NCBI GenBank assembly: GCA_039654915.1
Contig: CM077599.1
Location: 68,168,001-68,232,000 of the forward strand
DNA from: Aquilaria yunnanensis
Lineage: Eukaryota; Streptophyta; Magnoliopsida; Malvales; Thymelaeaceae
DNA: 64,000 nucleotides
Direction of reading: 5' to 3'
In this document: positions 27,264-47,190 of the stretch, piece by piece
Layout of the letters: every line of letters begins with the position of its first letter
Numbering within the stretch: the first letter of the stretch is position 1
Made by a program: the position numbers and the translations under genes
The notes under the pieces: model-generated
What the model was told of the DNA's origin: nothing
What the model saw: the letters and a program-made list of their open reading frames with translations, nothing else
The model's database searches: none

Positions 27264-27419
27264 TTAACAGAAAACGACAAAATTGTCAAAATCAGAAGCT
27301 TCAGGAACTTATCCAGAGTCTGAGAGACGTAAAGGACTGGAACTGTCATTTTACCAAATTAAAAGATAAGTTTGAATTTAATTAATTTTTAATTATGAAC
27401 AGTCCAGCACCCATTCCCC

Positions 27420-27427
27420 TATAAATA
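27420..27427 (+). promoter_or_regulatory. LTR TATA box
   Basis: TATAAATA within CCCCTATAAATAGGGG, also in the 3' LTR at 42397-42404. Likely the RNA polymerase II core promoter of the element; the start site would be near 27450. Confidence 0.75.
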
Positions 27428-28652: not shown

Positions 28653-30958
28653 GATCCGCCAGGATCCATGGCTTGGAAAATATTTTTTAAATAAAGTATA
28701 TAAAATATATATTTTTTTTACATAAAGTATATAAATAATTTTTTTTTTATTATTAAAAAATAAAAACTTTGGGCTAATATTTTACTTATCTCTTTATCCA
28801 GCAATATATTACTTATTTATTAAGTATAACTTTTTAGTTTCTTTTTTAGTAAAAAGAATAAAAGGATATAAAAACTTCAGGATTTTATTCAGTAATATTT
28901 TACTTTTTTTGATTGAAAAACTTTGGGATAATATTTTACTTATTTATTTCTATTCAGTAATATTTTAATTTTTTATTGAAAAACTTTGGGATAATATTTT
29001 ACTTATTTATTTTTATTCAGTAATATTTTACTTTTTGATTGAAAAACTTTGGGATAATATTTTACTTATTTATTTTTATTTAGTAATATTTTACTTTTTT
29101 GATTGAAAAACTTTGGGATAATATTTTACTTATTTAGTTTTATTCAGTAATATTTTAATTTTTGATTGAAAAACTTTGGGATAATATTTTAATTATTTAT
29201 TTTTATTCAGTAATATTTTACTTTTTGATTGAAAAAACTTTGGGATAATATTTTACTTATTTTTTTTATCCAGTAATATTTTACTTATTTCTTTCAAACT
29301 AATAAAAAGATATAACTTTTTGTTTCCTTTATTAAACAAAATAAAATTTTACCCAAATAATTTCAAATAAAGGTAATAAAAATAAACAAGAAAAAAAGAA
29401 TTAAATTTTTTAAATATTTTAGACTTATTAATTAGATGTATTTTTAGACTTATAAAAAAAGAACATAAAAATGAAATATAAATATCAAAAACTTTCCTTT
29501 ATTTTTAAAATATACATATAAATCTTTGATTTCTTTATTAAATAATCACTTTTTTAATAAATTATAAATATCAAAACTTTTCTTTTTGTTTAAAATATAC
29601 ATATAAATTTGTGGTTTTCTTTATTAAATATACATAAAATCTTAATTAAATAATTACTTTTGATTAATCTTTTATTAAAAATAAATTAAATAAATATCAA
29701 GACTTTTCTTTTTTTTTTTATATTTGGTTTCTTAATCAAATAATTACTTTTGGTTAATCTTTTACTAAAAATACTAAAATATTAAGTCTTTTCTTTTATT
29801 TTATATACATATAAAATCTTGTTTTCTTTATAAAATTTTGATTAAATAATTAACTTTTAATTCACCTTTTATCAAAAGAAATATCAAGACTTCTTTTTTA
29901 GTTGCTTTATTTAATAAATAAAATTTTGATTAAATGAAATATTAAGATTTTTTTATTATATATACAAATTTTTTGTTTCTTTATTAAATAAATAAAATTT
30001 TGATTAAATAATTAATTTTTTTATCAAATCAAATATTAAGACTTTTCTTTTATTTTGGTTTCTTTGTTAAATGAATAAAAATCTTGATTAAATAACTATT
30101 TTTTTTATTCATCTTTTATTAAATAAAAAGAATAAACAAAACATAATATATAAATTTTTATTTTAATATAAATCCATAATTTCTTTAAATGAAACTTCGA
30201 TTAAATAATTTATTTTTGGTTATTCTTTTATCAAATAAATAGAATAAACATAAATAAATGTCGAGATTTTTCTTAACTCTTTATTTTCTTTAAAGATTTT
30301 TTATGTTAAATAATTAAAAAGAAATTATTTTTGAATTGAGTAATTATTTAAATAGGTAATAAATATCTTTCATTAAACAAGAAAAAAAACCAAAAAAAAA
30401 ACAAAACAAAAACTGAAGAAAAAGAATAAGAGAAAGTAAAAGAAATGAAAAGAATGAAAGGAAAAGAAAACTAAAAATAAAAGAATAAGAAAGAAAGAAA
30501 AGAAAAGAAAGTAAAAGAAAAGTAAAATAAAAAATTAAAAATAAATAAAAAGAAGAAAAAGAAAGAAAGAAAAAGATGTAAAAATATAAGGAAAATAAAC
30601 AAAAGAGATAAAATTTTTTTAGTTAGTATTAAAAATCATTGACAAAAATCTAAAAAAGATTTTTCATAAGCAAAAAGAATTAGCATTTAGTAATTAAACT
30701 AAAAATTAATTCCATAATAATAAGAATTAAATAATTACGATAAATTAAAATAATTTCCATATCCGGATGAGCCTGCAGGATCTACGGTTTGAAAAATATC
30801 AACCTTTAAAAATAAATAAATTAAATAAAAAGGTAAAAATCCATATTTATGATATGGATTAAATTATTTAAAATTTCATCAAATTCCGTGTCCGGGTGAC
30901 TCGGCAGAGTCCATGGTTCGGAATCAAATCTTCCGTGTCCAAATGACTCGGCAGAGTC
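28653..30958 (+). other. Four copies of a 5-bp-stem tetraloop hairpin in the LTR leader
   Basis: Related ~40-bp blocks each contain a stem-loop: GATCC-GCCA-GGATC (28653-28666), GAGCC-TGCA-GGATC (30769-30782), GACTC-GGCA-GAGTC (30898-30911 and 30945-30958). In the 3' LTR the second copy is GATCC-GGCA-GGATC (45693-45706). Stem bases change together (ATCC/GGAT against ACTC/GAGT) while the GGCA/GCCA loop is kept, which suggests an RNA structure. Confidence 0.55.
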
Positions 30959-31246
30959 CATGGTTAGGAAGTATAAAATTCTATACAAATTAATTACCAA
31001 AAATTCACATCCGATTAATTTAGTTAAAATTTCTAGTTTGAAAATTAACTGAATATTTTCTAAAAGCAAAGTAAAACAAAAATTAAAATCAACTAAGGTG
31101 CCAATTTTGGGCGTTTTAACAATATTGTTTTAGCGTAACCGTACTCCCGATCCCTGAACTCTCGCAGACCATATTTTAGGTGACCAATCGACCTAAGAAA
31201 AAAACCGATTGGTGGCGACTCCAGAAAACCCGACGTTGCCACAGCT

Positions 31247-31285
31247 TTGCGACTCCACTGGGGATCGAACCCAGAATCTCTGGTT
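31247..31285 (+). other. Primer-binding site, extended tRNA-Arg complement
   Basis: TTGCGACTCCACTGGGGATCGAACCCAGAATC... is the reverse complement of a tRNA 3' half. It includes a complete T-arm (CTGGG, TTCGATC, CCCAG on the complementary strand) and an acceptor strand ending GAGTCG. As I recall plant tRNA-Arg(ACG), the match is close, with the complementarity running some 39 bases rather than the usual 12-18. tRNA-Arg priming is typical of Ogre-like elements. Confidence 0.7.
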
Positions 31286-31289
31286 AGTG

Positions 31290-32224
31290 AGTTAAGCCTA
31301 AAAGTTGAATTATTTTGTTCTGTTTTGTTTATTTTTATGTGGATTTATATGTTACATTTACTTATTCTAAACATGCATAATGCATTCACAATATGAAGCT
31401 CTATACCCGAGCTTCCTCAAATCGAACACAATTCTTTCTAAGCGGAATTGGTGTTGTTGTCCTTGTGAGGCCATGGTCTCCAAGCCTTCACCGGTTTCAA
31501 AGTAGCAAAGTAGTGTATTGCCTTTTGAGACGGTTAGTCTCTGCATGGGCCCACGAAAAGCTACGACTCGAATTAATCCATTCCTTACATAAACCCTAAA
31601 GGGTAAGGAATCGGGCTGTCACTATAATTTAGTGACGGGATTCGGGAACTATCCCTTGCCTTTTTGATAAGCCACCTTGTGCATATAGAACTCCCCACTT
31701 AACCATAGAACTGACCATAGAATTTCTACCATTTTACCAACGCCATAAGCATATCCTTGTTATGCTGTGTTGTTACTCTACACTTTTCTTCGTATGGTTT
31801 TAACTTGTTTATCCATAATACTTCATGAGTTGTTAATTGCTATTTAACTTATTAATAACCTTATCTTTCTTGTGCAATTATTCTTCATGCATCAAAACCA
31901 CGCATCAAATTATGCTAACTTTTTGGTCTTAATAATGACAACTAAAAGTTTTGAAGTTCCACGATAGTGGATAATCAAAGTCACTCATCGCATGCATTAC
32001 ATTAATCACATGCATATAAAATCTGATAAAAATAATCTCATTGCATGCATTCCATTACATCAATCACGTGCATATAAATTTTGATAAAAACATAATCTCA
32101 TTATGTATTGCATGCATCCATTGCATCAATCATATACATGTAAAGTCTAATAAAATGAATCTCACTTTAAAAAGGTAAAATTGGATCTCAACACCAATAT
32201 CCAACTCGGCTCCAAACAAGACTA
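31290..32224 (+). other. Leader between primer site and gag
   Basis: Untranslated. A run of about three ~55-bp repeats with GCATGCATTACAT/ATCACATGCATATAAA lies at 31988-32165. It would hold packaging and dimerisation signals; none can be named. Confidence 0.5.
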
Positions 32225-33480
32225 ATGGCACAGCAAGCCGAAGGTCGTCTCACAGATATTGAGTCCAAGATGGAAAACATGACAGAACAAATAAAACAAC
32301 TAATGGAGTTGATTAAGGGAAAAGCAACTCAAGTTCTTATCAAAGAACCACAAGATCTAACCTGTCCTCCCAGATTCACTCAACAATAGGTCTCAATTCA
32401 AGAGAAACCCTTTCACGACCCAGGCCCATCTGATAACACTCATTTAAGGCACTATCCAATTTTTGAAGAAAAGAAGCCCCCTATTTAAAGAAGATGAGGA
32501 TACTCAAAAACTCGAGACCATAGAAAAGACACTTCGGGCCATTAAAGGAGGCACTGTATTTGGATCTCTTTCGGTGAACGATCTTTGCTTAATGCCAGAC
32601 GTTGTGATTCCTTCAGAGTTTAAGATGCTAGACTTTGTGAAATACGTTGGAACGAGTTGTCCCATTACTCGCATTACACTATTTCTATGAAAAGTACAAC
32701 CACTCTTAAAAGACGAGAATGTGTGGATAGCACTTTTTCAAGAAAGTCCTACAAAGTCAATACTACAATGGTATCTAAGTCAAGGCCCAAAGAACATTAG
32801 AACATGGAATGATCTCGCCCAAGCTTTCATCAGAAGTTACAAGCATGTTATGGACTTGGCCCCAGATCGCCGAACTTTCCAGAATATGGAGAAGAATGAA
32901 CAAGAGACCTTTAAGGAATATGCACAAAGGTGGAGAAATATCTATCATAGAAAGAGAACTGATCACCCTGTTTATCCAAACATTAAATAGACCATTTTAT
33001 GAAAAACTATTTGGGAACACTTCAAGTAGCTTTTCAAATATGGTATTATCCGGAGAAAAGATTGAATTTGGAATCAAAACAGGAAAGTTGGTTGATTCTT
33101 CAATTGGAGGGTGTTTCAATGAAAGAAGCGAAGCTGTCCAAAACATCATCTCCAAGTCCTATGGCCTACTACCACTCATGTTATGAGCGAAATGATATCC
33201 TATTGAGACTGTAATCTTCAAGGCTCCCTTATCAGCACCACATACCACTTATGGGAAGAAAGCTACTCAAGTCGATTCAATTTCCACAAGCTACAAACCT
33301 ACTATCACCCATACCAATGGTAGCAAAAATCAAGTAGCATCTTCTTCCAAGTTGGAATGACCCAAATGCCAAATGTGATTACCAAAAAGGTTCAATTGGG
33401 CATTCAACTGATAATTGTGTGGCACTGAAACTCAAGTTGGTCGAGTCCAAGTTGCTAGGCCATAATGTGATTGATAATTG
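32225..33480 (+). pseudogene. Gypsy-type gag, multiply broken
   Basis: ATG at 32225 (MAQQAEGRLTDIESKMENMT) runs to an in-frame TAG at 32387. After frameshifts and stops, 32719-32990 reads WIALFQESPTKSILQWYL, then ARTW-like NIRTWNDLAQAFIRSYKH and QETFKEYAQRW, the core of the Ty3/gypsy Retrotrans_gag domain. Near 33370-33450 a CDYQKGSIGHSTDNC zinc-knuckle-like stretch follows. At least three frame breaks mean no functional capsid protein. No protease or polymerase follows. Confidence 0.85.
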
Positions 33481-35880
33481 AAAGTGAAGATTTTGAACTG
33501 GAATTACATTGATTTTGGAAGGGCTCCAAGTCAGACCCGACCTAACAGTTCACACACACTTTTGAATAACAGGGAATCCTTTGAATAAACTTGTATCTTT
33601 GAGAGCTTGTCAAAGTAATCTAATAGTAAAAACCTCCTAGATTTAGTCCAAAATCTAGGGTGTAGTCTTTGTGAAATGGACACCTGGTATTCTTTTTCTG
33701 GTACAACAAAAAGATGTAATGTGTGCATTCTACCACTTTTTACCAAAAATTCCATTTTTACATCCACATATTCTACCACTTTCTACCAAAAATTTCATTT
33801 TCTCACATCTATCTCTCATTCATTGCCATTACACTATCCATTATTACCATCACACTTTACTTTGTAAACAATACTACTCGTGGGTGAAAATGAAAGTTAA
33901 GAAATATTTGATAGTAGTGATCTTCAAGAGAATGATTTCAAATGTTGCACCTCAACTAAAAAAAAAGAATTCACAGTGGTTATCAACATCCTTGCAAGAA
34001 GTCTTGGGTTAGCTTCCAAAGAAGGTAGCTCTTATATTAAATGACTTCAGTGGCCTCCCAATTCTCACAAATGCTAAAAAAAAAAAAAAGTTCTCAGTTT
34101 TACGCAACACAAATTCTCAAAAAAAAAAAAAAAAAAGGAAAGAAGTTCCTCCCTTTTATCAAAAGACAACAAGGGAAAATTCAAAATCCAAAACAAAAAG
34201 AGACTGAGAGCAAGCACGAGCAAGTAAAGCCACTTGAGTCATCTCACTTCAAAAGGGCTATAATCTCGGTTCTCTACAACACAAACTCTAAAAAGAAAGA
34301 GAAGTTCATCCCTCCCATCAAAAGGCAACAAGGGAAAATTCAAAACCAAAAAGGACTGAGAACAAGCACGAGCAAGCAAGGCCACTTGAGTCATCTCACT
34401 TCAAGAGAGTTATCAAGTATGTTATCACCATAGCTCACACAAAAAAAAAAGGGAAATAAAAAAAAAACAAGAAAAGAAAAGAAACGAAGCTCAAGTTAGA
34501 GCCAAAGAAAGAAAAAGAAAAAAAGTGAGCTATGGATTCTAGACTGAAAACCTGCAAAGGCGGTTTAGAAGACAAAAGCAACCCTCAAGCCAAGCGTACA
34601 TAAAGATTACGATAGTTGGGGGGCAACAGATGAGGTCCAACTTTCTAGAAAACGTGGCAAGTTTGAGGTCATCACTATTAAGTTTTTTACCATAATCAGA
34701 TCTGCTCACGAGTAGTATTAAAAGACCCTTCTTTCACACCACTCAAACTTAACTTTACTCAGACCTAATATTTACCTCTTAATATCATTCTCATTCAGCT
34801 AAAAGACTGCAACAAAACAAAAAAAAACATTCAAACTTAATTTTCCTCACGCCTAACAGTTACCTCTCGATATCATCCTCATTCAGCTAAAAGGCTATCC
34901 TTGTGAATCATGTTTATACCTTATTGCCTTGCACAGTTTATGTCTTCGAGTTGGAAAGGGAAGAATGGCAGGATATTTTAATTAAAAACAAAGACCGTAA
35001 ATTACTTTGTCAAGCTTTGCAAATTGATGAAAGTTTTTCTTTAAGGCCAAACCATTATTCATTAATGTGTGTAGACTTAAAAGTGAGGAGATAACTTGAG
35101 ACTTTCTTTAAGAAGATGTGGTTCTTGCAAGAGAAATTCATGATCAAGAACCATCACAAAGGTCTAGAAATGCTCGATCTTCTTTTAAATCAAAGGCGAG
35201 CTGATACCTTTTATCCACATAAACACCATATTCAGGGGGCAAGGTACTCTTTGCGAAGTGTAAGAAGAGTACTGTCAACGAAGAAGCTCAATAAACAAAT
35301 GGGGCAAGTCTTATCGAGCAAAACCTGAGTTTAAAGAAGAGTAATCATTCAGATTGTAACATGGGGATAAGTATGTGTCAGCCCGGACACAAGAAAAAGG
35401 ACAGACATTGAAAGTTAAGCCTTTGATGCTATGAAATCCATGACAAGGGATGAGTACCCAAAGAGACATAAAGTATGAGGCGGGCAAACATTAAAGAAAT
35501 TGAAGCCAAAATTCAAGAACAAGTCAAGGAAAGGGGATTTTGAAAAGAGTCGGGCTTTTGAGGCAATGAACAAGAGCTGAGAAGCATAAAGAGATTCAAT
35601 GATAGTCCAAGAAGGCAATCACAAAGAAGATCCAGTAAAGCAAAGACATGAAAAACTAGATCCATAAAAAAAAAAAGAAAAAAAACATCAATTCCACATG
35701 CTCTGCATTCATGCATTTCACATCATGCATGCATGACTTTTACATAACAAGGACCAAACGGGAATCACATTCACAGCACAGTTACAGCAGTATAAGCTGA
35801 GATCTCAATGTCACCAGCTCTTACCAATCTATCACTGGATACACAGCTAATATGCGGGACCAACCCGCATCAGAAATTTA
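33481..35880 (+). other. Retrotransposon interior without recognisable genes
   Basis: This is where pol is expected, but no reverse transcriptase (YxDD), RNase H or integrase motif is visible in any frame. It holds internal duplications: about 34085-34260 against 34260-34430 (ACAAGGGAAAATTCAAAA, GAGCAAGCACGAGCAAG, CCACTTGAGTCATCTCACTT) and about 34735-34800 against 34825-34890 (ATCAT(T/C)CTCATTCAGCTAAAA). Confidence 0.6.
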
Positions 35881-36410
35881 AGGATAAGGTAGACAATATG
35901 TCAAAAGCCTGGCAATCGATTCAATAATCGAGACTACACCTGGAAGGACAGGATTGACGTCAGCTAGTAGTATCCAAGATAAGAGATAGCTATAGCCAAG
36001 GATAAGGCAGATATCAAAAAGGATAAAGTAGACAATATTGTCAAAAGCCTGGCAATCGATTCAATAATCGAGACTATACCTGGAAGGACAGGATTGACGT
36101 CAGCTAGTAGTATCCAAGATAAGAGATAGCTATAGCCAAGGATAAGGCAGATATAAAAAAGGATAAAGTAGACAATATTGTCAAAAGCCTGGCAATTGAT
36201 TCAATAATCGAGGCTACACCTGGAAGGACAGGATTGATGCCAGCTTAGCAGCATCCAAGATAAGAGATAGCTGTGGTCAAAGATAAGGCAGACATCAAGA
36301 AATATTGTCGTTGAAAATTTGTCAAAAGCGGACAATGGATTCAATAATCGAGGACTGGATCGATGTCAGCTCGATGGAATATCCAAGATAAAAAATATCT
36401 ATCACATCAA
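35881..36410 (+). promoter_or_regulatory. ~140-bp tandem repeats with TGACGTCA sites
   Basis: About four units (key phrase GTCAAAAGCCTGGCAATCGA near 35900, 36041, 36181, decayed at 36318). The first two contain ATTGACGTCAGC, a palindromic bZIP/TGA-factor type site; the later ones have ATTGATGCCAGC and TCGATGTCAGC. Placed directly upstream of the first zinc-finger ORF, they could serve as an enhancer array; this is inference. Confidence 0.6.
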
Positions 36411-36538
36411 AATGAAGTAGGATCCACTTTTCCGGTTAAGTGGCGGATACGGTACTCCGTGACTCTCAAGTCGGTTCTCTCAGTTGCCCATAATAACTGA
36501 TTCTTTCCTCTCTTCTTTCTTTTACTTCCCTCTAGAAA

Positions 36539-37087
36539 ATGGATCCTACTCTTTCTGTCTTACGAAAATATTTTCCTTCTCTCCCAATGAACATTCTTAA
36601 AAAGATCTACCAAGTTCGCTGTGAACGATTAAGAGTTCTGATGCACAAAGGAATCCTTGAAGATGTACGATGGTTAATCGAAGCTAAGGTTCGTCTGGCA
36701 GGTGAAATCCCAGAGGCATTTGTGTCTCACATGCCTGGTATAGGCAGAAGCTCTTATGCCAAAAAGCGAAGAGCGAAAAGGTTACGAGTCTGCCACAAAT
36801 GTGGACGGTGGACTTGTAATACTAAATGTCGTTCTTTAGGAATGATCTCCGATAATCGAGAAGATAAAATACGATTCATCAAGAATGGCCTGAGTAAGGA
36901 CTCATTGGATGATATCCGATTGACTCTTGAGACACATTCTTGTGGATCAGTGCAACGCGAACTTCTTGGTTTATGGAGTATTTTTCATGAAGAACGAGAG
37001 CGTTACAGTCCCGGGAATCTGACTTTAAATGACCATGTTTGCCAGCTTGTAAGAAAGCTGGATGGGAAGCAAACCCTCGACTCATAG
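36539..37087 (+). CDS. Basic C4 zinc-finger ORF, copy 1 (virus CRP-like)
   Basis: ATG at 36539, 182 codons, uninterrupted, starting MDPTLSVLRKYFPSLPMNIL. The N-terminal third is basic and probably helical. A basic cluster (SSYAKKRRAKRLRVC) at 71-85 runs into a C4 motif C-x2-C-x4-C-x3-C (C85, C88, C93, C97), then a charged C-terminal domain. The arrangement Ser-x-Tyr-Ala-x2-basic cluster-x-Cys-His-x-Cys resembles the cysteine-rich nucleic-acid-binding proteins of carlaviruses and relatives (Pfam Carla_C4 type), which are known as nuclear/RNA-binding regulators. This is a motif-level similarity, not a proven homology. It sits inside the retrotransposon, downstream of the enhancer-like repeats; two diverged tandem copies follow. 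Confidence 0.75.
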   Translation: MDPTLSVLRKYFPSLPMNILKKIYQVRCERLRVLMHKGILEDVRWLIEAKVRLAGEIPEAFVSHMPGIGRSSYAKKRRAKRLRVCHKCGRWTCNTKCRSLGMISDNREDKIRFIKNGLSKDSLDDIRLTLETHSCGSVQRELLGLWSIFHEERERYSPGNLTLNDHVCQLVRKLDGKQTLDS

Positions 37088-37249
37088 AAGCCGTTAATGC
37101 TGTTACTAGACGTAAAGCCAGTGGAAGATGTGAGCCACAGTCACAATTACTGTACATACAGTTTGTTATATTTGGAAAAGTTTGCATTTTCTTTTGACAG
37201 ATGTACATGCTCCCCTAAGTGTAATCGACACGTTATCCCTTTTCATCAC

Positions 37250-37257
37250 TATAAATG
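37250..37257 (+). promoter_or_regulatory. TATA-like box before zinc-finger ORF 2
   Basis: TATAAATG in the phrase CATCACTATAAATGCGTGTT, 127 bp before the second ORF. The same phrase recurs before ORF 3, as part of the duplicated gene cassette. Confidence 0.5.
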
Positions 37258-37376
37258 CGTGTTCTTCCTTCTGATTAGGCAGCGGATAAGATACCCCGTG
37301 ACTTCTAAAGTCGGTTATTCCAGTCTCCTACAATAACTGATTCATTTCCCTCTCCTCTCAAATTCTTCTCTCATCA

Positions 37377-37925
37377 ATGGATTCTACTCTTTCTGCACTG
37401 CGAAAATACTTTCCTTCCCTTCCAATAAAAGTCCTTAAAAAGATCTACCTTGCTAGATGTGAAAGAATCAGAGTTTTTACACGCAAAGGCATTCCCGATA
37501 ATGTGCAGTGGATAATTGAAGCTAAGGTCCGTTTGGCGGGTGAAGTTCCAGATGCATTTATGCCCCGCATGCCCGGTTTAGGTAAAAGCCGTTATGCCAA
37601 AAGGCGAAGAGCAAAGAGACTAGGCGTGTGTTATAAATGTGGGCGATGGAATTGTAATACTAAATGTCACTCTTTAGGATACATCTCCATAAATCGTGAA
37701 GATAAAAGAAAATTCATTAAGAATGGCCTGCGTAAGGAATCTCTGGAAGATATCCGAGAGACTCTTGAAACGCATTCTTGTGGAAAAGTGCAAGGTGAAA
37801 TTATCAGTTTATGGAGGACTTACCATAAAGAACGAAACCGTTACAGTCTTGGGAATGTGACTTTAAACGACCCTGTTTGTCAGTTTGTAAGAAAACTGGA
37901 TGGGAACCAAATCCCCGACTTATAG
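37377..37925 (+). CDS. Basic C4 zinc-finger ORF, copy 2 (virus CRP-like)
   Basis: ATG at 37377, 182 codons, same length as copies 1 and 3 with no indel. It starts MDSTLSALRKYFPSLPIKVL; basic KSRYAKRRRAKRLGVC then C85, C88, C93, C97. Against copy 3, codons 6-14 (SALRKYFPS) differ at five positions, all synonymous, which suggests selection on protein sequence after duplication. The leader and trailer are also duplicated (TAGAAGGCATTGAAGCCATTACTGG after the stop). Function as for copy 1: a likely nucleic-acid-binding protein. Confidence 0.75.
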   Translation: MDSTLSALRKYFPSLPIKVLKKIYLARCERIRVFTRKGIPDNVQWIIEAKVRLAGEVPDAFMPRMPGLGKSRYAKRRRAKRLGVCYKCGRWNCNTKCHSLGYISINREDKRKFIKNGLRKESLEDIRETLETHSCGKVQGEIISLWRTYHKERNRYSLGNVTLNDPVCQFVRKLDGNQIPDL

Positions 37926-38075
37926 AAGGCATTGAAGCCATTACTGGACATAAATCAGTGGAAGATGAGAGCCACAGTCATGATTGCTGTACATATAAGC
38001 TGTCATTTGTCTTTTCTTTTGATAATAATGTACTTGCTTCTGCAAGTGTAATTAACGCATTATCTCTTTCATCAC

Positions 38076-38083
38076 TATAAATA
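38076..38083 (+). promoter_or_regulatory. TATA-like box before zinc-finger ORF 3
   Basis: TATAAATA in CATCACTATAAATATGTGTT, 74 bp before the ATG of copy 3. Confidence 0.55.
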
Positions 38084-38149
38084 TGTGTTAGTTATTTCCA
38101 TTTCCTACAATCACTAATTTCTTTCTTCTCTTAAATACCTCCTTCATCA

Positions 38150-38698
38150 ATGGAGTCTTCTCTTTCCGCCCTACGAAAGTATTTTCCTTCCTTCCCAATA
38201 AATGTTCTTAAAAAGATTTATCAAGCTAGATGTGAACGATTCAAAGTATTTATGCACAAAGGCATTCCTGATAATGTGCGGTGGCTAATCGAAGCTAAGG
38301 TTCGTTCAGCTGGTGAAGTTCCAGAAGCGTTCTTTCCCCGTATGCCCGGCTTTGGTAAAAGCGCTTATGCCAAAAAAAGAAGAGCAAAGAGGCTAGGCGT
38401 TTGTCATAATTGTGGATGGTGGATTTGCGGCAATAAATGTCGTTCTCTAGGAGTGATCACCAGAAATCGTAATGATAGAATAAGATTCATTAAGAATGGC
38501 TTACGTAAGGAATCTCTAGAAGATATTCGAGAGGTTCTTGAAGCGCATTCTTGCGGAATAGTGCAATTTGAGATTGTTGGATTATGGATAATTTTCCAAA
38601 AAGAACGAGATCGTTATAATCTTGGGAATCTGACTTTAAACGACCCAGTTTGCCAGTTTGTGAGAAAACTGGATGGGATGCAAATCGCCGATTCATAG
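38150..38698 (+). CDS. Basic C4 zinc-finger ORF, copy 3 (virus CRP-like)
   Basis: ATG at 38150, 182 codons, uninterrupted, starting MESSLSALRKYFPSFPINVL. Basic KSAYAKKRRAKRLGVC leads into the C4 motif with the same cysteines (85, 88, 93, 97), here in CHNCGWWICGNKC. The conserved C-terminal stretches (RFIKNGLRKESLEDIRE, NLTLNDPVCQFVRKLDG) are shared by all copies, so the whole length is under constraint and not only the finger. It lies 74 bp from a TATA-like box and upstream of ~75-bp repeats and the LOG-like pseudogene. Confidence 0.75.
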   Translation: MESSLSALRKYFPSFPINVLKKIYQARCERFKVFMHKGIPDNVRWLIEAKVRSAGEVPEAFFPRMPGFGKSAYAKKRRAKRLGVCHNCGWWICGNKCRSLGVITRNRNDRIRFIKNGLRKESLEDIREVLEAHSCGIVQFEIVGLWIIFQKERDRYNLGNLTLNDPVCQFVRKLDGMQIADS

Positions 38699-38734
38699 AA
38701 GGCATTGAAGCCATTACTGGATGCAAAATCAGTG

Positions 38735-39035
38735 AAAGACGTGAACCAAAGTCACGATTACTGTACATGCTAGCTGTCGCTTTTGAAATTATCCTCCCAA
38801 TAATGTACCCACTCCTGACATGAGATACAGTTATGACTACTGTATATAGCTGCCACTTTTAAAATTTTCCTTCTCTTCCAACAATCACGTACCTACTCCT
38901 GACGTAAGCTACAGTAGTGACCACTGTACATGCTAGCAGCTATTTTGAAAATTTTCCTCCTCTTTTAACGATAGTGTACCCATACCTGACCAGAGTCATA
39001 CCCGTGATTACTGTGAATAGCTGGCAATAATGTAT
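38735..39035 (+). promoter_or_regulatory. ~75-bp degenerate repeats upstream of LOG-like gene
   Basis: Four diverged units sharing GATTACTGTACATGCTAGCTG, TTTTGAAAATTTTCCTCC and TGTACCCACTCCTGAC. One contains CTGACGTAAGC (about 38902), an as-1-like TGACG motif. Similar sequence follows each zinc-finger ORF, so the units appear to have grown from the cassette's own flank. Confidence 0.6.
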
Positions 39036-39077
39036 CCATTCTTGAAAAATAAAATTATTGCCTTATATTTTCATCTC

Positions 39078-39085
39078 TATAAATA
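39078..39085 (+). promoter_or_regulatory. TATA-like box before LOG-like gene
   Basis: TATAAATA in TCATCTCTATAAATATATCC, 48 bp before the ATG at 39126, comparable to the boxes before zinc-finger ORFs 2 and 3. Confidence 0.5.
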
Positions 39086-39125
39086 TATCCTCTTTTCTTC
39101 TTTTCTCACATGGGTAAGGATAGGA

Positions 39126-39755
39126 ATGGAGAAAACCTCCACTCGTAAACCCCGAAGTATTTGTGTATTTTCTGGAGCTTTTCCTGGAGAAGATGAAGAG
39201 TACTTAAAGGCAGTCAACCATTTGGGTAGTGTATTAGCTGAGTGAAGAATACACTTAGTTTATGGAGGAGGTAGTGTCGGATTAATGGGAGCTGTAGCAT
39301 CAGCAGCATCTTTAGGAGGAAGCCAGGTTCTGGGTATTATCCCTGCATCTCTGAAATCGGTTTCTGGGGGCATGATTGGAAAAGAGCTAGTGGTTAAAAA
39401 TCTGCAAGAGCGCTTGTTACAAATGCTTTTTAATGATGATGCTTTTATCGCTCTACCAGGTGGCTTTGGCACATTAGGAGAAGTCTTCCAAATCACTTCC
39501 ATGGCCCAACTTAATTTGCATCAAAAACCCATTGGGCTGTTAAATGTTAACTATTTCTTCGCAGGTCTATTATCTTTTATGAATCGTGCTGTGAAGCAAA
39601 AGTTTATCCCTGAGGTGGCACGACGAATCATAATATCCGCAACAACTGCTGAAGAATTGCTAGATAAAATGTAAGCTTTTGTTCCTGAACCAGATCCAGC
39701 AATGATCCAAATAGACTGGGCACGACAATCTTTCCCAACCAGTTCCGTCCCATAA
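39126..39755 (+). pseudogene. LONELY GUY (LOG)-like phosphoribohydrolase, intronless pseudogene
   Basis: LOG enzymes release active cytokinin base from cytokinin riboside 5'-monophosphate in the cytosol and nucleus. From ATG 39126 (MEKTSTRKPRSICVFSGAFP) the frame keeps LVYGGGSVGLMG, DDAFIALPGGFGTLGEVF (the PGGxGTxxE signature) and QKPIGLLNV. It is broken by TGA at codon 40 (39243-39245, in the position of a usual Arg, so one CGA-to-TGA change would explain it) and by TAA at codon 183; the frame then continues to TAA at codon 210, the normal LOG length. The N-terminal CGSS-type motif is changed (FSGAFPG) and the usual RK pair reads RL. Plant LOG genes have several introns; this copy has none, fitting capture through RNA. 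Confidence 0.88.
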
Positions 39756-40295
39756 TTGTCCTTTACCCGGCCTGTTAAAGCATTGTGGAAGAAGAAGCGA
39801 TCTGATCCATTTTTCTTGTCCTTTCGTTTTAATTATCAGCATTTTTTTTTGTATTTCAGTTTTTCTTTTCAGGGAATTTCGTTATCTTATAAGATAGTTT
39901 CATCCATGCTGATATTAAAACCATGGGACAATGCCTTTAGGTTGGAATGGCTGAGTAAAGAGTAATTTTTATTACTCTTGAGACGCATCCTATTAGGTCT
40001 ACTAGGCATAACATTTTGGGGTAGTTAAGCTTTAACCTAATTTGGATGACATATCTCACAAGGGAATCTATATTTACTAAAGAAAATATTAGATGAACCT
40101 TGGATATTGATTCCAAACATCCGTTCCCTTTACATAATTTGTCAGTGTTATTGTCATCATCAAGATTCACTCATCTTATCGAAGTCTAAATTTCTGCACT
40201 CACCTATTATGAAAATTCACACTTCCGAATAGAACATTTCAACTTCGATTGTCTGAGGTACTTAAAAAGGAGGAAAGAGTATTTCTCCACAATCA
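39756..40295 (+). other. Retrotransposon spacer, no gene
   Basis: Mixed composition, nothing recognised between the LOG-like pseudogene and the hairpin repeat arrays. Confidence 0.5.
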
Positions 40296-40296
40296 A

Positions 40297-40560
40297 TTTC
40301 AATTTCAACGAGGTTCTAAGGACGGAACCTTTGCCTCGTAATCAATCAATTTCAATTTCAACGAGGTTCTAAGGACGGAACCTTTGCCTCGTAATCAATC
40401 AATTTCAATTTCAACGAGGTTCTAAGGACGGAGCCTTTGCCTCGTAATTAATCAATTTCAACGAGGTTCTAAGGACGGAACCTTTGCCTCGTAACCAATC
40501 AATTAATCAATTTCAATTTCAACGAGGTTCTAAGGACGGAACCTTTGCCTCAATCAATCA
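40297..40560 (+). repeat. Hairpin tandem repeat array A
   Basis: Five units of 50-70 bp with CGAGGTTCTAAGGACGGAAC followed by CTTTGCCTCG. Each can fold, pairing AGGTTC with GAACCT and the outer CGAGG with CCTCG. Units are separated by AATCAATCAATTTCAATTTCAA. Confidence 0.85.
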
Positions 40561-41790
40561 GTCCATCTTACAACGATAGGAGCTTTCCTATCGTAGAGGT
40601 TCTAAGGACATTTCCTTAAACCTCAAACAATCAATCAATCAGTCCATCTTACAACAATAGGAGCTTTCCTATCGTAGAGGTTCTAATGACCTTTCCTTAA
40701 ACCTCAAACAATCAATCAATCAGTCCATCTTACAACGATAGGAGCTTTCCTATCGTAGAGGTTCTAAGGACCTTTCCTTAAACCTCAAACAATCAATCAA
40801 TCAGTCCATCTTACAACGATAGGAGCTTTCCTATCGTAGAGGTTCTAAGGACCTTTCCTTAACCTCAAACAATCAATCAACCAGTCCATCTTACAACGAT
40901 AGGAGCTTTCTTATCGTAGAGGTTCTAAGGTAGGGCCCTTAACCTCAAACTTGCAATGATAGGAGAGTTCCTATTGTCGAGGTTCTAAGGAGAGTTCCTT
41001 AAACCTCAAACAATCAATCATCAATTTTTCTTCAAACGATAAGAGAGTTCTTATCGCAGAGGTTCTAAGGTAGGGCCCTTAACCTCAAACTTGCAACGAT
41101 AGGAGAGTTCCTATCGTCGAGGTTCTAAGGAGAGTTCCTTAACCTCAAACAATCAATCAATCAGTCCATCTTACAATGATAGGAGCTTTCCTATCGTAGA
41201 GGTTCTAAGGACCTTTCCTTAAACCTCAAACAATCAATCAATCAGTCCATCGTACAACGATAGGAGCTTTCCTATCGAAGAGGTTCTAAGGACCTTTCCT
41301 TAACCTCAAACAATCAATCAATCAGTCCATCTTACAACGATAGGAGCTTTCCTATCGTAGAGGTTCTAAGGACCTTTCCTTAACCTCAAACAATCAATCA
41401 ATCAGTCCATCTTACAACGATAGGAGCTTTCCTATCGTAGAGGTTCTAAGGACCTTTCCTTAACCTCAAACAATCAATCAACCAGTCCATCTTACAACGA
41501 TAGGAGCTTTTCTATCGTAGAGGTTCTAAGGACCTTTCCTTAACCTCAAACAATCAATCAATCAGTCCATCTTACAACGATAGGAGCTTTCCTATCGTAG
41601 AAGTTCTAAGGACCTTTCCTTAAACCTTAAAACCAACCAAATCAATTTCTTTTCGACGGTAGGAAGGTTTCTATCGTAGAGGTTCTAAGGTAGGGCCCTT
41701 AACCTCGATCAATCAATCAATTTTTATTTAACGATAGGAGAGTTCCTATCGCAGAGGTTCTAAGAAAAGTTTCTTAACCTCAGGATTTAG
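40560..41790 (+). repeat. Hairpin tandem repeat array B (two stem-loops per unit)
   Basis: About 16 units of 55-80 bp. Each has stem-loop 1 (ACGATAGGA, short loop, TCCTATCGT) and stem-loop 2 (GAGGTTCTAAGG, loop, CCTTAAACCTC), joined by CAATCAATCAATCAGTCCAT. At 41036-41058 stem 1 is CGATAAGA...TTCTTATCG, changed on both sides, so pairing is kept. The array ends about 80 bp before the polypurine tract. Tandem repeats in the 3' untranslated region are known for Tat/Ogre elements. Confidence 0.88.
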
Positions 41791-41873
41791 GCGGCGAGAA
41801 AGTTTTCAATGCCTAGCTAAGCCGGACGAAATTTGGTAACGACTTTGCATACATCATGTCCCATGAAGCATGC

Positions 41874-41886
41874 AAAGGGGGGCAGC
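41874..41886 (+). other. Polypurine tract
   Basis: AAAGGGGGGCAGC directly before the 3' LTR start, the expected plus-strand priming site. Confidence 0.8.
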
Positions 41887-44800
41887 TGTTGACACCCAAT
41901 TTCGTCCGACCATTAAAAAAAGAATTTTAAAAAAAATTAAATAAAAATTAATTAAAAAAAATTATTATTATTACTATTATTATTATTATTATTACTAAAA
42001 TTTTTTAATTAGTTTAAAATACATTTTTTTGTTTTGTTTTGTGAAGATGATATATGTGTGTATATGTGTATGTTTGAAAGAAAAAAAGAAAACTCCATAA
42101 AAATGACAAAATTAAAAAGTTTGAGGTTAAAATTAGAAAATTGAGAAGTTTCGGGAAAAATTGATAAAATCTGAAAGTTTCAGGAGCATTTGGTAGTTTG
42201 TCACATCAATTTGGGGCCAGCATAACCGTTCTGGCCCCAATTAATAGAAAACGACAAAATTGTCAAAATCAGAAGCTTCAGGAACTTATCCAGAGTCTGA
42301 GAGACGTAAAGGACTGAAACTGTCATTTTACCAAATTAAAAGATAAGTTTGAATTTAATTAATTTTTAATTATGAACAGTCCAGCACCCATTCCCCTATA
42401 AATAGGGGTCCAAATCTGTGTGTTAACACAGAAAGAAAGACAGAGAAAATGAGAAAAAAAACTTAGAGGTCCGTTTTGAAAAAAAGGAAACAATTAGCCT
42501 AGGTCCCTGGCCCTCTTCTCTTCCTCTCCAGAAAACCTAAACCTTCTCTGACTGTTTCCCCCCCCACCCCCCCCTGCGCGCGCGCGTCTGCTTCGGAATT
42601 CAAAATTCATTTTCAAAAGGTACAACCTCATTTTTATCCTTCATCTTCTCATATTTATTTATTTTAGTCACTAACCTTTTATTTATTTCTGCAGAATTAA
42701 CCAATTACTAACTCTCTTTTACATTTTATTTGTTTATTATTGTTATTATTACTAACCTTTAATTATTGTTGTTATTATTATTATTAACTTACTAATTTAC
42801 TAACTTTACTAACTTTTATCGTTATTATTGTTAACAACTAACCCAACTAACTTTACTAACTTTTATTATTGTTATTATTATTGTTATTAACAACTAATTC
42901 TAACAACTAACTTTTATTATCTTTATTATTATTATTATTATTATAATAATTCATGGAAGGTTATACCTCCTATTTATTTATTTTTAGTGGATGGCCAAAA
43001 AGCCCCACTTTATTTATTTGCTTACTATTTATTGATCTTTAACTTTCCTTTATTTACTTTATGTGCTTTTTATTTGTTTATTTATTTATTTGAATATGTT
43101 ATTTAATTTTTAAAAGTTGATGGTCAAAAAGCCCCACTTTATTTATTTATATGTTTTACCTTTATTTATTTACATGTGTTATTTTATGCATTTTTTTATG
43201 GATGTCTAAACTAAAAAAAATTTCCTTTTACTTTACTTTATTTAATTTTCCTTTATGCCAAAATTTTACTTTATGATAAAAATTTATTTCACTTATTTAA
43301 TAATAAATAAAATAAATAAGTAAATAATAATTAATTAAAAAAAAAAGAAGTTTTTATGTGAATAATTAACTTTCTTCATTTTTAAGGCTATCAAAAAAAA
43401 TCTTTTTTCAAACAAAAATCCCCATCCGTCGTTATTTCAAATCTTCATTATTTTGAAACATCAATTTTTATTTTTTTCATTTTTCTAAAAAAATTAACCT
43501 TTTATTAAAATTATTAAAAAAATTATAATTGAATAATTCTAAAAATACAAGAAAAAATCAATTCTGTTTTTTTTAAATATATTTTTTAAAGTAATAATAA
43601 TTAAATAAATAATTAATAAAAATTAAAATCCATGTCCAAATGATCCGCCAGGATCCATGGCTTGGAAAATATTTTTTAAATAAAGTATATAAAATATATA
43701 TTTTTTTTACATAAAGTATGTAAATAATTTTTTTTTATTATTAAAAAATAAAAACTTTGGGCTAATATTTTACTTATCTCTTTATCCAGCAATATATTAC
43801 TTATTTATTAAGTATAACTTTTTAGTTTCTTTATTAGTAAAAAGAATAAAAGGATATAAAAACATCAGGATTTTATTCAATAATATTTTACTTTTTTTGA
43901 TTGAAAAACTTTGGGATAATATTTTACTTATTTATTTTTATTCAGTAATATTTTACTTTTTGATTGAAAAACTTTGGGATAATATTTTACTTATTTATTT
44001 TTATTTAGTAATATTTTACTTTTTTGATTGAAAAACTTTGGGATAATATTTTACTTATTTATTTTTATTCAGTAATATTTTACTTTTTGATTGAAAAACT
44101 TTGGGATAATATTTTACTTATTTATTTTTATTCAGTAATATTTTACTTTTTGATTGAAAAAACTTTGGGATAATATTTTACTTATTTTTTTTATCTAGTA
44201 ATATTTTACTTTTTTCTTTCAAAATAATAAAAAGATATAACTTTTTGTTTCCTTTATTAAACAAAATAAAATTTTACCCAAATAATTTCAAATAAAGGTA
44301 ATAAAAATAAACAAGAAAAAAAGAATTAAATTTTTTAAATATTTTAGACTTATTAATTAGACGTATTTTTAGACTTATAAAAAAAGAACATAAAAAAGAA
44401 ATATAAATATAAAAAACTTTCCTTTATTTTTAAAATATACATATAAATCTTTGATTTCTATATTAAATAATCACTTTTTTAATAAATTATAAATATCAAA
44501 ACTTTTCTTTTTGTTTAAAATATACATATAAATTTGTGGTTTTCTTTATTAAATATACATAAAATCTTAATTAAATAATTACTTTTGATTAATCTTTTAT
44601 TAAAAATAAATTAAATAAATATCAAGACTTTTCTTTTTTTTTATATTTGGTTTCTTAATCAAATAATTACTTTTGGTTAATCTTTTACTAAAAATACTAA
44701 AATATTAAGTCTTTTCTTTTATTTTATATACATATAAAATCTTGTTTTCTTTATAAAATTTTGATTAAATAATTAACTTTTAATTCACCTTTTATCAAAA

Positions 44801-46167
44801 GAAATATCAAGACTTCTTTTTTAGTTGCTTTATTTAATAAATAAAATTTTGATTAAATGAAATATTAAGATTTTTTTATTATATATACAAATTTTTTGTT
44901 TCTTTATTAAATAAATAAAATTTTGATTAAATAATTAATTTTTTTATCAAATCAAATATTAAGACTTTTCTTTTATTTTGGTTTCTTTGTTAAATGAATA
45001 AAAATCTTGATTAAATAACTATTTTTTTTATTCATCTTTTATTAAATAAAAAGAATAAACAAAACATAATATATAAATTTTTATTTTAATATAAATCCAT
45101 AATTTCTTTAAATGAAACTTCGATTAAATAATTTATTTTTGGTTATTCTTTTATCAAATAAATAGAATAAACATAAATAAATGTCGAGATTTTTCTTAAC
45201 TCTTTATTTTCTTTAAAGATTTTTTATGTTAAATAATTAAAAAGAAATTATTTTTGAATTGAGTAATTATTTAAATAGGTAATAAATATATTTCATGAAA
45301 CAAGAAAAAAAACCAAAAAAAAAAAGAAAACCAAAACTGAAGAAAAAGAATAAGAGAAAGTAAAAGAAATGAAAAGAAAGAAAGGAAAAGAAAACTAAAA
45401 ATAAAAGAATAAGAAAGAAAGAAAAGAAAAGAAAGTAAAAGAAAAGTAAAATAAAAAAGTAAAAATAAGTAAAAAGAAGAAAAAGAAAGAAAGAAAAAGA
45501 TGTAAAAATATAAGGAAAATAAACAAAAAAGATAAAATTTTTTTAGTTAGTATTAAAAATCATTGACAAAAATCTAAAAAAGATTTTTCATAAGCAAAAA
45601 GAATTACCATTTAGTAATTAAACTAAAAATTAATTCCATAATAATAAGAATTAAATAATTACGATAAATTAAAATAATTTCCATATCCGGATGATCCGGC
45701 AGGATCTACGGTTTGAAAAATATCAACCTTTAAAAATAAATAAATTAAATAAAAAGGTAAAAATCCATATTTACGATATGGATTAAATTATTTAAAATTT
45801 CGTCAAATTCCGTGTCCGGGTGACTCGGCAGAGTCCATGGTTCGGAATCAAATCTTCCGTGTCCAAATGACTCGGCAGAGTCCATGGTTCGGAAGTATAA
45901 AATTCTATACAAATTAATTACCAAAAATTCACATCCGATTAATTTAGTTAAAATTTCTAGTTTGAAAATTAACTGAATATTTTCTAAAAGCAAAGGAAAA
46001 CAAAAAGTAAAATCAACTAAGGTGCCAATTTTGGGCGTTTTAACAATATTGTTTTAGTGTAACCGTACTCCCGATCCCCGAACTCTCGCAGACCATATTT
46101 TAGGTGACCAATCGACCTAAGAAAAAAACCGATTGGTGGCGACTCCAGAAAACCCGACGTTGCCACA
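41887..46167 (+). repeat. 3' LTR (4281 bp)
   Basis: Same start, end and internal order as the 5' LTR. It has five rather than six ~63-bp internal units, which explains most of the 53-bp length difference. A CG-rich TGCGCGCGCGCG replaces part of the 5' LTR C run near 42575. It is followed by the duplication CATTC. Confidence 0.95.
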
Positions 46168-47190
46168 CATTCTTTATTGTGCTGAAAAATAGTTTCGGTA
46201 GAAAAATCATAACTTGAGCTACGGATGTCCAATTTGAATGAACAAGCTATCGATTTGAAGATAAAGAAGAGATCTACAAGTTCTGAGCTTTAAAAAAGAG
46301 TTGATTCAATGTCTACGATGGACAAAAAATTAAATGAAGTTGTAGCCCACCTTTGTTGATTTATATTTACCTACATTTTACTATTTTACCATTTCACCTA
46401 CCCTAAAACTCTATAAATAGGCACCTTGGGGGGGGGGGAATTTATGCCATTTCTTAGGCCTCCTTTATGTTCTTGTATCATTTTTAGCTTTTCTTCTTTA
46501 GTTTTGTTCTAGTTTTCAATACCGAAGTTTTGTCCAAGTGTTTTCTCATTCTTCTTCTTGTTCTTCCTTTGATCTTTCAATCCATGTTCATTTCATCTTT
46601 CTACATGTTGTTTACTTTTATCATGGCTAACTAATTTTCTTTTTGCTAAGGTTAAAGGGTGAAGCTTTTGGCATAAAGGTTATGATTGATTTGAATGGAT
46701 CACAACATTAACGATATTTTCTTCCTTAATCTATTTAACTTCTCTATTTGTTAAGTGGGAGTCTTGATTCATCATAGTCAATTATTGACACAAAAGCTAC
46801 TTGATTTCCTTTATAGAACATAGCTCTGTCGGCTATATTAGAATCTTGAGTTATTGTAGACAGAGGTTAGCATGATGAATACTTGAATCCATTAGCAAGC
46901 GTTAGTGTTTTAAGATCAATGAAAGTTAATACTAACTAAACTCCCCGATTGGGACATCCTTTATATGTGGATCCTAATTGAGTGGTAAGATGGGCTAAAA
47001 TTAATTATAACCGATATACTAAAAGTGGATCTCTTAACATTAGCTATTTTATTTGAATTTGAATATTTAATCAACACTTGTTCACATATTTCACGAAAAC
47101 CTTCCTTCACTTTTGTAATTTGTATTTCTTAATTCACTTCCCTGTGGTTCGATACTCGGACTCCCGAGATTTTATTACTTGCGACAACCT
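46168..47190 (+). repeat. Right part of an older LTR-like sequence
   Basis: Contains CTCTATAAATAGGCACC (TATA at 46412-46419), T-rich leader-like sequence, and near 47140-47185 the phrase TTCCCTGTGGTTCGATACTCGG...TTATTACTTGCGACAA, which I recognise as a common end region of plant Gypsy LTRs. The 19-kb element inserted upstream of the TATA box. The other LTR of this older element was not found. Confidence 0.5.

Follow-up and report, generated by a model that had tools for sequence, protein, structure and literature searches.

The window, that is, the whole 64-kb stretch of the Aquilaria yunnanensis genome analyzed here, contains a 19-kb LTR element (26910-46167) bordered on both sides by the TSD CATTC (5 bp, read directly at the element ends, 26905-26909 and 46168-46172). 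Its genes and other features all lie on the plus strand. The 5' LTR (26910-31243, 4.3 kb, TGTTGACACC...CACA) gives a BLAST match of 96.2% to 41887-46167, a pairing that defines the 3' LTR; both have TG...CA termini and their K2P distance is 0.0142, that is, 60 substitutions over 4268 aligned sites. A PBS-like stretch, complementary to the 3' half of a tRNA as judged by eye, adjoins the 5' LTR (31244-31272), its motif being found at 31249 and also at position 1792 of the sister copy L063, and a polypurine tract reads AAAGGGGGGCAGC (41874-41886), so that LTRs, TSD, PBS, and PPT are all present. The gag (Retrotrans_gag, 32448-33211; PF03732, E-value 3.1e-5 near 32760-32954 with stops treated as X) is split by stops and frame changes, although open pieces remain. 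An LTR element with a stop-riddled gag is what the earlier note had described from the sequence, and its boundaries, polypurine tract, and PBS-like site bear this out. A Pfam scan of 31200-41100 (plus strand, E-value up to 0.1) matched no RT or integrase; nor did it reveal any caulimovirid movement, coat, or RT domain, which led us to discard an endogenous caulimovirid.

Three tandem, intact open reading frames, each of 182 codons plus stop as the earlier note had stated, encode cysteine-rich proteins (CRPs): copy 1 (c1, 36539-37087), copy 2 (c2, 37377-37925), and copy 3 (c3, 38150-38698). They are followed by an intronless LOG-type (cytokinin riboside 5'-monophosphate phosphoribohydrolase) pseudogene (39126-39674) and, between LOG and the 3' LTR, by tandem arrays with units spaced about 53, 60, and 80 bp (40290-41782). 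With a degenerate gag and no pol found, the window copy fails as an autonomous retrotransposon; it is a recent non-autonomous member of its family, in which LOG is broken and the CRP genes are intact.

Match of the CRPs to viral nucleic-acid-binding proteins

All three CRPs score above the curated Pfam cut-offs for both Carla_C4 (PF01623) and Viral_NABP (PF05515), two families that may share members: c1 with E-values of 1e-5 and 1.5e-5, c2 with 1.1e-5 and 1.7e-7, and c3 with 7.5e-5 and 8.8e-6, respectively. An extra copy, c2', in the locus L066 exceeds the cut-off for Carla_C4 (21.6 vs. 20.9) and falls just below that for Viral_NABP (21.9 vs. 23). Across the family, at an E-value of at most 0.1, Carla_C4 is matched by 74 and Viral_NABP by 72 of the 76 members, and the next-best Pfam family by only 8. 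The match thus exceeds chance, two viral families being above curated cut-offs in all three copies and most family members matching. As previously proposed, C85, C88, C93, and C97 are invariant in the three copies behind a K/R-RRAKR cluster, the C4 finger spanning residues 85-97. In the family alignment, these cysteines are kept in 116/122, 120/123, 121/123, and 118/123 rows, respectively (counting only rows with a letter at the position and including the three window copies). The proposed likeness of finger and basic approach to carlavirus-type CRPs is upheld by the profile search, which led to viral families and to no better one.

Could a zinc-finger protein of plant or retroelement origin, without kinship to viral CRPs, have come to resemble them by chance over a 45-residue basic C4 stretch? 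Such convergence would fit the confinement of the profile match to about residues 34-122, with its center at 57-97; residues 1-33 and 123-182 are unexplained by it, and residues 98-182 alone matched no Pfam family. It would also fit the structure comparison: an AlphaFold model built on 76 sequences was of low confidence (pLDDT 70.8, pTM 0.36) and gave no significant fold match in BFVD or PDB, and a PDB sequence search returned nothing significant. On the other hand, two viral families are matched above curated cut-offs, with the next family far behind, and the approach region contributes to the match, since residues 34-83, which exclude the finger cysteines, still reach an E-value of 8e-4 with Carla_C4. 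In the BFVD search with this weak model, moreover, CRPs of what we take to be betaflexiviruses held ranks 1, 2, 3, 5, and 8 among 12 matches, none of them significant (best E-value 0.43). Against convergence also stands that PF05515 matched none of 14 control genomes, a weak control because the identities of the genomes are not given. We consider convergence improbable.

Searches for viral homologs in other collections were negative within their scope. Two homolog scans of IMG/VR returned no CRP homolog, and two DNA-pattern scans gave 4 and 0 loci. The three of these sites that were inspected (L067-L069) carried no CRP-like open reading frame; the frames there look phage-like by eye. No protein named viral was among the best 120 of 345 matches to the CRP, nor among the best 120 of 571 matches to a 74-residue core query intended to favor short viral CRPs. 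Most of these 120 core matches had no telling name and two were named Parasponia; at least one relative among these best 120 of 571 (P0320, Parasponia) is annotated "Viral nucleic acid binding".

The LOG gene and TATA-like boxes

The window LOG is interrupted by an in-frame TGA at 39243 and matches Lysine_decarbox (PF03641) with an E-value of 1e-29; other loci have intact homologs of 210 aa. Both the window LOG and that of L064 contain PGGFGTLGE, an instance of the PGGxGTxxE motif, and the L064 protein matches Arabidopsis At2g37210 with an E-value of 2.7e-51. Judged by its sequence, this LOG is clearly of plant type. The earlier note had not mentioned it.

TATA-like boxes were read ahead of c2 (TTCATCACTATAAAT, 37242-37256), c3 (TTCATCACTATAAAT, 38068-38082), and LOG (TTCATCTCTATAAAT, 39070-39084), and TTCATCNCTATAAAT has only three occurrences in the window, ahead of these same genes. 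Among the copies examined, TATAAA lies at most 200 bp before c2 in 54/54, before c3 in 50/53, and before c1 in 6/53; in diverged loci, the box precedes c3 in 8/8, c2 in 3/6, and c1/c2 chimeras in 0/2. These motifs suggest that c2, c2', c3, and LOG are each probably driven by a separate TATA promoter, which would give small mRNAs apart from the gag-pol RNA. Because TATAAA is rare before c1 and inconstant before c2 in diverged loci, separate promoters would not extend to c1 and would not be a fixed trait of c2.

These boxes bear on a further explanation, in which the CRP is a nucleocapsid-like capsid or RNA-packaging helper that works with the element's Gag on its RNA, without any action on the host. 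The finger and its basic approach are apt for binding RNA, the available text of PMC11213338 describes viral CRPs as able to associate with virions, and L063 keeps an open gag (634 aa) along with its CRPs, no pol having been found there. Nevertheless, we hold a packaging role to be unlikely: boxes before c2, c3, and LOG speak against it, as does a neighbor that encodes a hormone enzyme with no packaging role, and the CRPs of the window are intact though its gag is dead, which may merely reflect recent insertion.

The family in the genome and selection on the CRP genes

A first look at the 842-Mb genome gave thousands of candidate places for the family, on which we reject an endogenous RNA-virus insertion at this locus alone. 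The CRP module comprises two to four tandem copies, with three or four in most loci examined, so that three is not a fixed number; the idea that a retrotransposon keeps and multiplies such a gene is thereby supported. The order c1-c2-c3 is unchanged in diverged subfamilies. In a full-length relative, a gag with a G-patch is followed by RT-RNaseH-aRNaseH-integrase frames, four CRP genes, one of them broken, and an intact LOG frame; its c1 carries an in-frame stop. The domains of the relative L065 (RVT_1 153-311, RNaseH 375-505, RVT_3 570-680, H2C2 770-827, rve 846-943), with RVT_3 taken as the second, archaeal-type RNaseH, follow the order RT, RNaseH, second RNaseH, integrase given for Tat/Ogre elements in the accessible part of PMC6317226, which points to a Tat/Ogre-type Ty3/gypsy family. 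We set aside an Athila affiliation for this genome, as the relative shows the Tat domain order. Athila had come into consideration because the protein P0102 fuses the CRP to an integrase end that looks Athila-type by eye, and because Steinbauerova is said to have reported LOG from Athila-like elements in 2011. Outside this genome, the best 120 of 345 protein matches include relatives with 55-62% identity named from Populus, Xanthoceras, Acer, Rhamnella, and Orobanche, which belong to the rosids and asterids; relatives in several plant orders have about equal length.

Pairwise dN/dS values among the three copies are 0.296, 0.202, and 0.284, that is, 0.20-0.30 and not near 1, the value named beforehand as speaking against the viral-type reading. 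The statement that c2 and c3 differ mostly at synonymous sites holds for codons 6-14, where 5/5 differing codons are synonymous, but not for the whole gene, with about 57.5 non-synonymous against 45.5 synonymous differences; constraint between these copies is thus visible in the rates (dN 0.149, dS 0.525) and not in raw counts. Among insertions, private variants have N/S values of 0.71, 0.84, and 0.69 of neutral, whereas variants common to at least three insertions have 0.25, 0.45, and 0.30, a contrast that is significant when pooled (Fisher P = 8.8e-7) and not for c2 alone (P = 0.18). Near-neutral private variants together with shared variants poor in amino-acid changes point to selection on the element's lineage. 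This pattern agrees with purifying selection that acts while the lineage replicates and is relaxed once a copy has inserted, and it appears that selection has maintained the CRP genes in working order as the element multiplied. That the genes are functionless passengers, either host genes picked up or endogenous RNA-virus fragments swallowed by the element, would agree with the plant type of LOG and with the transduction of genes by LTR elements (PMC9289625, available text), but is highly improbable in view of the constant gene order, the relatives of similar length in several plant orders, the thousands of candidate places, and above all the depletion of amino-acid changes among shared variants, on which we reject it.

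Interpretation and relation to known systems

These data support the earlier interpretation of virus-like accessory genes. The explanation that we regard as probable is, as a whole, that a Tat/Ogre-like Ty3/gypsy family of high copy number carries tandem CRPs and LOG, and that the three genes of the window serve it as accessory genes. How such helpers might act is more tentative and relies on analogy: separately transcribed, the CRP would counter silencing and/or activate host genes, with LOG at its side. The module occupies the site of known extra ORFs, between integrase and 3' LTR, and the basic region and C4 finger of its CRP fall by profile into the carlavirus/allexivirus nucleic-acid-binding families. 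This CRP may act as proteins of the carlavirus p12 class do: it would enter the nucleus via the KKRRAKR stretch, bind nucleic acid, and weaken RNA silencing of the element and/or switch on host genes. LOG would increase active cytokinin, and together the two could favor cells that divide, go on to form the germline, and express the element. According to the available portion of PMC7588395, chrysanthemum virus B p12 both activates transcription and suppresses silencing. As both LOG and gag are broken in the window, this copy does not prove that the module works.

The CRPs of the element share with those of carlaviruses and allexiviruses (e.g., chrysanthemum virus B p12) an arginine-rich basic approach followed by a C-x2-C-x4-C-x3-C finger, but they are 182 aa long, extend beyond the match by about 33 residues at the N-terminus and 60 at the C-terminus, and are encoded in tandem by nuclear retrotransposons rather than by an RNA virus. 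Like the extra ORFs (eORFs) of plant Ty3/gypsy OTA elements (Ogre, Tat, Athila), they lie between pol and the 3' LTR of a Tat-type element. In the available text of the survey PMC6317226, the most prominent eORF domains are the plant mobile domain, Transposase_28, and Athila ORF-1, and a viral CRP is not named; this survey applied a minimum eORF length of 250 codons, which the 182-codon genes do not reach, so that they are easily overlooked in TE surveys. LOG in plant gypsy elements is already in print: the accessible part of PMC9289625 describes gypsy elements with a YgdH/LONELY GUY domain from two Citrus species and, in unfiltered data, from Populus trichocarpa, with no CRP reported there. 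The same text describes large Phalaenopsis gypsy elements that keep a captured AlkB (m6A demethylase) gene, of a kind also found in flexiviruses, although AlkB is a different protein, whose nearest relatives in that work are cellular demethylases. Insect R1 LINEs likewise carry tobamovirus-like helicase domains, for which silencing suppression was proposed, but R1 is a non-LTR element with another viral gene; cucumoviral and pomoviral helicase sequences are close to plant LTR retrotransposons (PMC4686597, as far as its available text goes). We found no report of a viral-type CRP in plant LTR elements among the titles and abstract openings listed, in which subscription literature is thinly covered.

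It is possible, though doubtful, that the gene was exchanged, in either direction, between filamentous plant RNA viruses and the Tat/Ogre lineage and became half of a host-manipulation module, in which a silencing suppressor or transcription activator and a cytokinin-activating enzyme, under their own promoters, would sustain division and hold silencing low in the host cells during copying of the element. To our knowledge, the origin of plant RNA virus CRPs is unsettled, and a large nuclear family with a viral CRP domain offers a testable source or sink for them. If true, a retrotransposon in which element-level selection maintains a hormone-activating enzyme alongside a regulator of viral type would be a direct example of a plant mobile element that manages host development and defense.

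The CRP genes and their viral counterparts

The three tandem 182-codon ORFs reported in the earlier note lie on the + strand at 36539–37087, 37377–37925, and 38150–38698 (c1, c2, and c3), and C85, C88, C93, and C97 are indeed invariant in all three, downstream of a K/R-RRAKR cluster. Copies 1 and 3 share 70% and 74% protein identity with copy 2. The proposed likeness to viral proteins was borne out by profile comparison: all three copies score above the curated cut-offs of both Carla_C4 (PF01623; E-values 1e-5, 1.1e-5, and 7.5e-5 for c1, c2, and c3) and Viral_NABP (PF05515; 1.5e-5, 1.7e-7, and 8.8e-6). In a 76-member alignment (the three window copies and 73 relatives picked from the best 120 of 345 proteins), 74 and 72 members match Carla_C4 and Viral_NABP, respectively, at E ≤ 0.1, and the next-best Pfam family is matched by 8. 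Because residues 62–97 alone match Viral_NABP (E 4.4e-6) and Carla_C4 (E 7.9e-6), residues 34–83, which lack the finger cysteines, match Carla_C4 at 8e-4 and Viral_NABP at only 0.05, and residues 98–182 alone have no Pfam match, the part common to the viral families consists of the basic approach and the finger, weakly extended upstream. The structure model built from the 76 sequences is weak (pLDDT 70.8, pTM 0.36), and nothing significant was found in the PDB for the CRP. With this model as query, BFVD ranks 1, 2, 3, 5, and 8 of 12 are viral proteins, from Fig latent virus 1, chrysanthemum virus B, Cherry mottle leaf virus, and cowpea mild mottle virus, all of them betaflexiviruses. As the best E-value is 0.43, this ranking is no more than suggestive of a likeness to betaflexivirus proteins. 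An unrelated finger that came to resemble the viral CRPs by convergence is, in our judgment, an unlikely origin for these genes.

A profile of the three copies retrieved 345 proteins at E ≤ 10. Among the best 120 of these, named relatives come from Xanthoceras, Rhamnella, Populus, Acer, and Orobanche (55–62% identity to copy 2), 68 are exactly 182 aa long, and none is named after a virus, most rows being without names; each finger cysteine is retained in 95–98% of the rows of the relatives alignment. In an 84-row tree, in which 34 of 81 inner branches are well supported, the window copies join two database relatives, P0001 and P0002 (support 100/98), Xanthoceras groups with Acer, both Orobanche rows group together, and both Populus rows fall within one 11-row clade. 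This topology fits long vertical inheritance within plants, perhaps with horizontal steps, and tandem multiplication of the CRP in the window's lineage. In one relative, P0102 (Rhamnella rubrinervis, 265 aa), the CRP is fused, as judged by eye, behind a gypsy-like integrase C-terminal end, which could stem from a faulty gene model or point to a further carrier lineage.

The carrier element and its family

BLAST self-comparison of the window delimits direct repeats at 26910–31243 and 41887–46167 (96% identity including gaps). These LTRs start with TGTTGACACC and end with CACA, CATTC flanks the element at both ends, a PBS-like stretch lies directly 3' of the 5' LTR, and AAAGGGGGGCAGC directly 5' of the 3' LTR. 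The LTRs are long (4.3 kb) and both contain ~63-bp tandem repeats (28762–29298 and 43830–44272). Their alignment holds 27 transitions and 33 transversions over 4268 sites (K2P 0.0142), which at commonly used plant substitution rates (0.7–1.3e-8 per site per year) dates the insertion to about 0.5–1 million years; at this age, the intactness of the window copy alone is little proof. Besides the three CRP genes, the internal part contains tandem arrays. The gag, which the note found to be full of stops, is broken between frames (PF03732 E 3.1e-5 when stops are translated as X), a LOG-type gene (PF03641 E 1e-29) has an in-frame TGA at 39243, and no reverse transcriptase or integrase match was found on the plus strand of 31200–41100 at E ≤ 0.1. 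Elsewhere, the window contains part of a gene for a respiratory-burst NADPH oxidase (exons at 9409–11480, −; Ferric_reduct, NADPH_Ox) and an ORF bearing DUF4216 (20967–21731, −), a domain of plant CACTA-type DNA transposons.

A full-length relative (L065 and L066, C1:23135000–23152900) shares ~75% identity with the window element in gag and ~85% across the CRP region, and is thus a relative, not a near copy. Its ORF1 (1103 aa, L065:853–4164) contains Retrotrans_gag and, after it, a G-patch (PF01585 E 3.2e-9). Its ORF2 (1132 aa) contains RVT_1, two RNaseH models, RVT_3, Integrase_H2C2, and rve, and shows the RT-RH-aRH-integrase order that PMC6317226 describes for Ogre and Retand. Downstream follow c1 (one in-frame stop), c2, a further copy c2', c3, LOG, and the start of the 3' LTR; c2' and c3 are intact, LOG is an intact frame of 241 aa, and c2 is split over the two fetched stretches (ATG at the end of L065, residues 10–182 open in L066). 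A sister copy (L063 and L064, C6:95334000–95350000) encodes a 634-aa gag, keeps all three of its CRP genes intact, and has an uninterrupted LOG frame; no pol was found in it. The family therefore holds both gag-pol-CRP-LOG and pol-less members, and the window element belongs to the latter, its gag and LOG both being dead. That the CRP is a helper of Gag seems to us rather improbable. Beyond the 3' LTR of the sister copy, L064:5150–6100 is 97% identical to window 37042–37992 and lies within another family element, which would reflect nesting or recombination between elements.

We searched the 842-Mb genome (345 contigs), in which candidate counts do not represent confirmed copies. Copy 2 gave 8775 first-look candidates, and 149 of the 150 scored, which are the best by design, have no internal stop. 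In 30 loci chosen with this query, the unselected neighbours are intact in 21/29 c1 and 19/26 c3 (omitting four c3 cut by the locus end), and c2' is present in four. A spacer, a query not chosen on coding sequence, gave 1968 candidates (40 scored, 30 loci fetched); these loci, window included, carry 88 CRP copies, 60 of them intact. A PF05515 search gave 7046 candidates, all 150 scored exceeding the family cut-off, whereas none of 14 control genomes, a weak control set, was positive. At five loci (L010, L026, L027, L030, and L066), c2' lies between c2 and c3 and is ~79–80% identical to c2. Two minus-strand loci, L077 (C6:4078000–4080200) and L078 (C2:64586700–64588900), combine a c1-like start with a c2-like finger region, followed by c3; such chimeras would arise by unequal recombination between tandem copies, leaving fewer copies. 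At C5:95213513–95240048 and C4:8814440–8828456, same-strand CRP elements ~13 kb apart resemble head-to-tail arrays.

Selection and promoter-like boxes

The note held that copies 2 and 3 differ mostly at synonymous sites. This is true of codons 6–14, where five codons differ and every change is silent, and fails for the whole gene (~45.5 silent vs ~57.5 non-silent differences). Pairwise dN/dS between window copies is nevertheless 0.296 (bootstrap 0.20–0.47), 0.202 (0.11–0.32), and 0.284 (0.17–0.44), with dS of 0.53–0.87. Across 52–55 insertions per gene, about half of the loci being chosen by c2 and related insertions not being independent, the non-synonymous/synonymous ratio is 0.71, 0.84, and 0.69 of neutral (c1, c2, and c3) for variants seen once, and 0.25, 0.45, and 0.30 for those in at least three insertions; variants present in just two insertions were omitted, as were rows diverging from the window copy by >12%, among which heavily frameshifted rows would fall. 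Stops are rare among shared variants (2, 0, and 3 vs 10, 4, and 12 private), and the shared versus private contrast is significant when pooled (Fisher, p 8.8e-7; singly 0.0003, 0.18, and 0.009). The simplest reading is that the CRP genes are under purifying selection during element replication and drift after insertion.

The 64-kb window contains three occurrences of TTCATCNCTATAAAT (37242, 38068, and 39070), which precede c2, c3, and LOG, and a similar box precedes c2, c2', c3, and LOG in L063–L066 wherever these genes are carried. TATAAA lies within 200 bp upstream of c2 in 54/54, c2' in 8/8, c3 in 50/53, and c3' in 3/3 cases, and of c1 in just 6/53 and c1' in 0/6, counts in which the window locus enters twice and the spacer query itself included the c2 box. 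At eight more diverged loci, the box precedes c3 in 8/8, c2 in 3/6, and the c1/c2 chimera in 0/2; some of these counts speak against each copy having a promoter of its own. Because young copies resemble one another in any case, more weight falls on the retention of the box across c2, c3, and LOG and on its presence before c3 in diverged loci. The main reading of these genes does not depend on the boxes.

The LOG neighbour and a possible role

The intact LOG of the sister copy (L064) gave 3666 candidates, 150/150 scored being without stops, and matches Arabidopsis At2g37210 (E 2.7e-51) with PGGxGTxxE retained. It is a single uninterrupted frame, and plant LOG genes have introns, which would suit capture through RNA. 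In other records, homologues of LOG and of the CRP have three contig sizes >1.5 kb in common (8723, 4511, and 2128; jitter test on 53 and 46 sizes, p 0.02), and two >4 kb, a cut chosen after the data were seen (p 0.00035); shorter common sizes also exist, of which 734 is too short for both genes apart. The matching sizes suggest that the two genes may be carried as a pair elsewhere too.

Gypsy elements of Citrus and Populus are already known from the literature to carry LOG (YgdH) domains, and G-patch domains are likewise published (PMC9289625). A search of the open-licence literature, which lacks most subscription papers, turned up no description of viral-type CRPs carried by plant LTR elements. 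The plant-virus-like helicase in insect LINEs, described in PMC4686597, which also points to viral helicase sequences that are close to plant LTR retrotransposons, is a precedent for virus–retroelement transfer of this kind. In viral CRPs of this class, the nuclear signal is arginine-rich, and the proteins are usually silencing suppressors and pathogenicity determinants (PMC11213338); p12 of chrysanthemum virus B is presented in PMC7588395 as a transcription activator in the nucleus and a silencing suppressor in the cytoplasm. By analogy, the element's CRP would shield the element from silencing and/or alter the transcription of host genes, with LOG raising cytokinin levels; we tentatively propose that the two may act jointly in this manner, a possibility to which we give modest probability.
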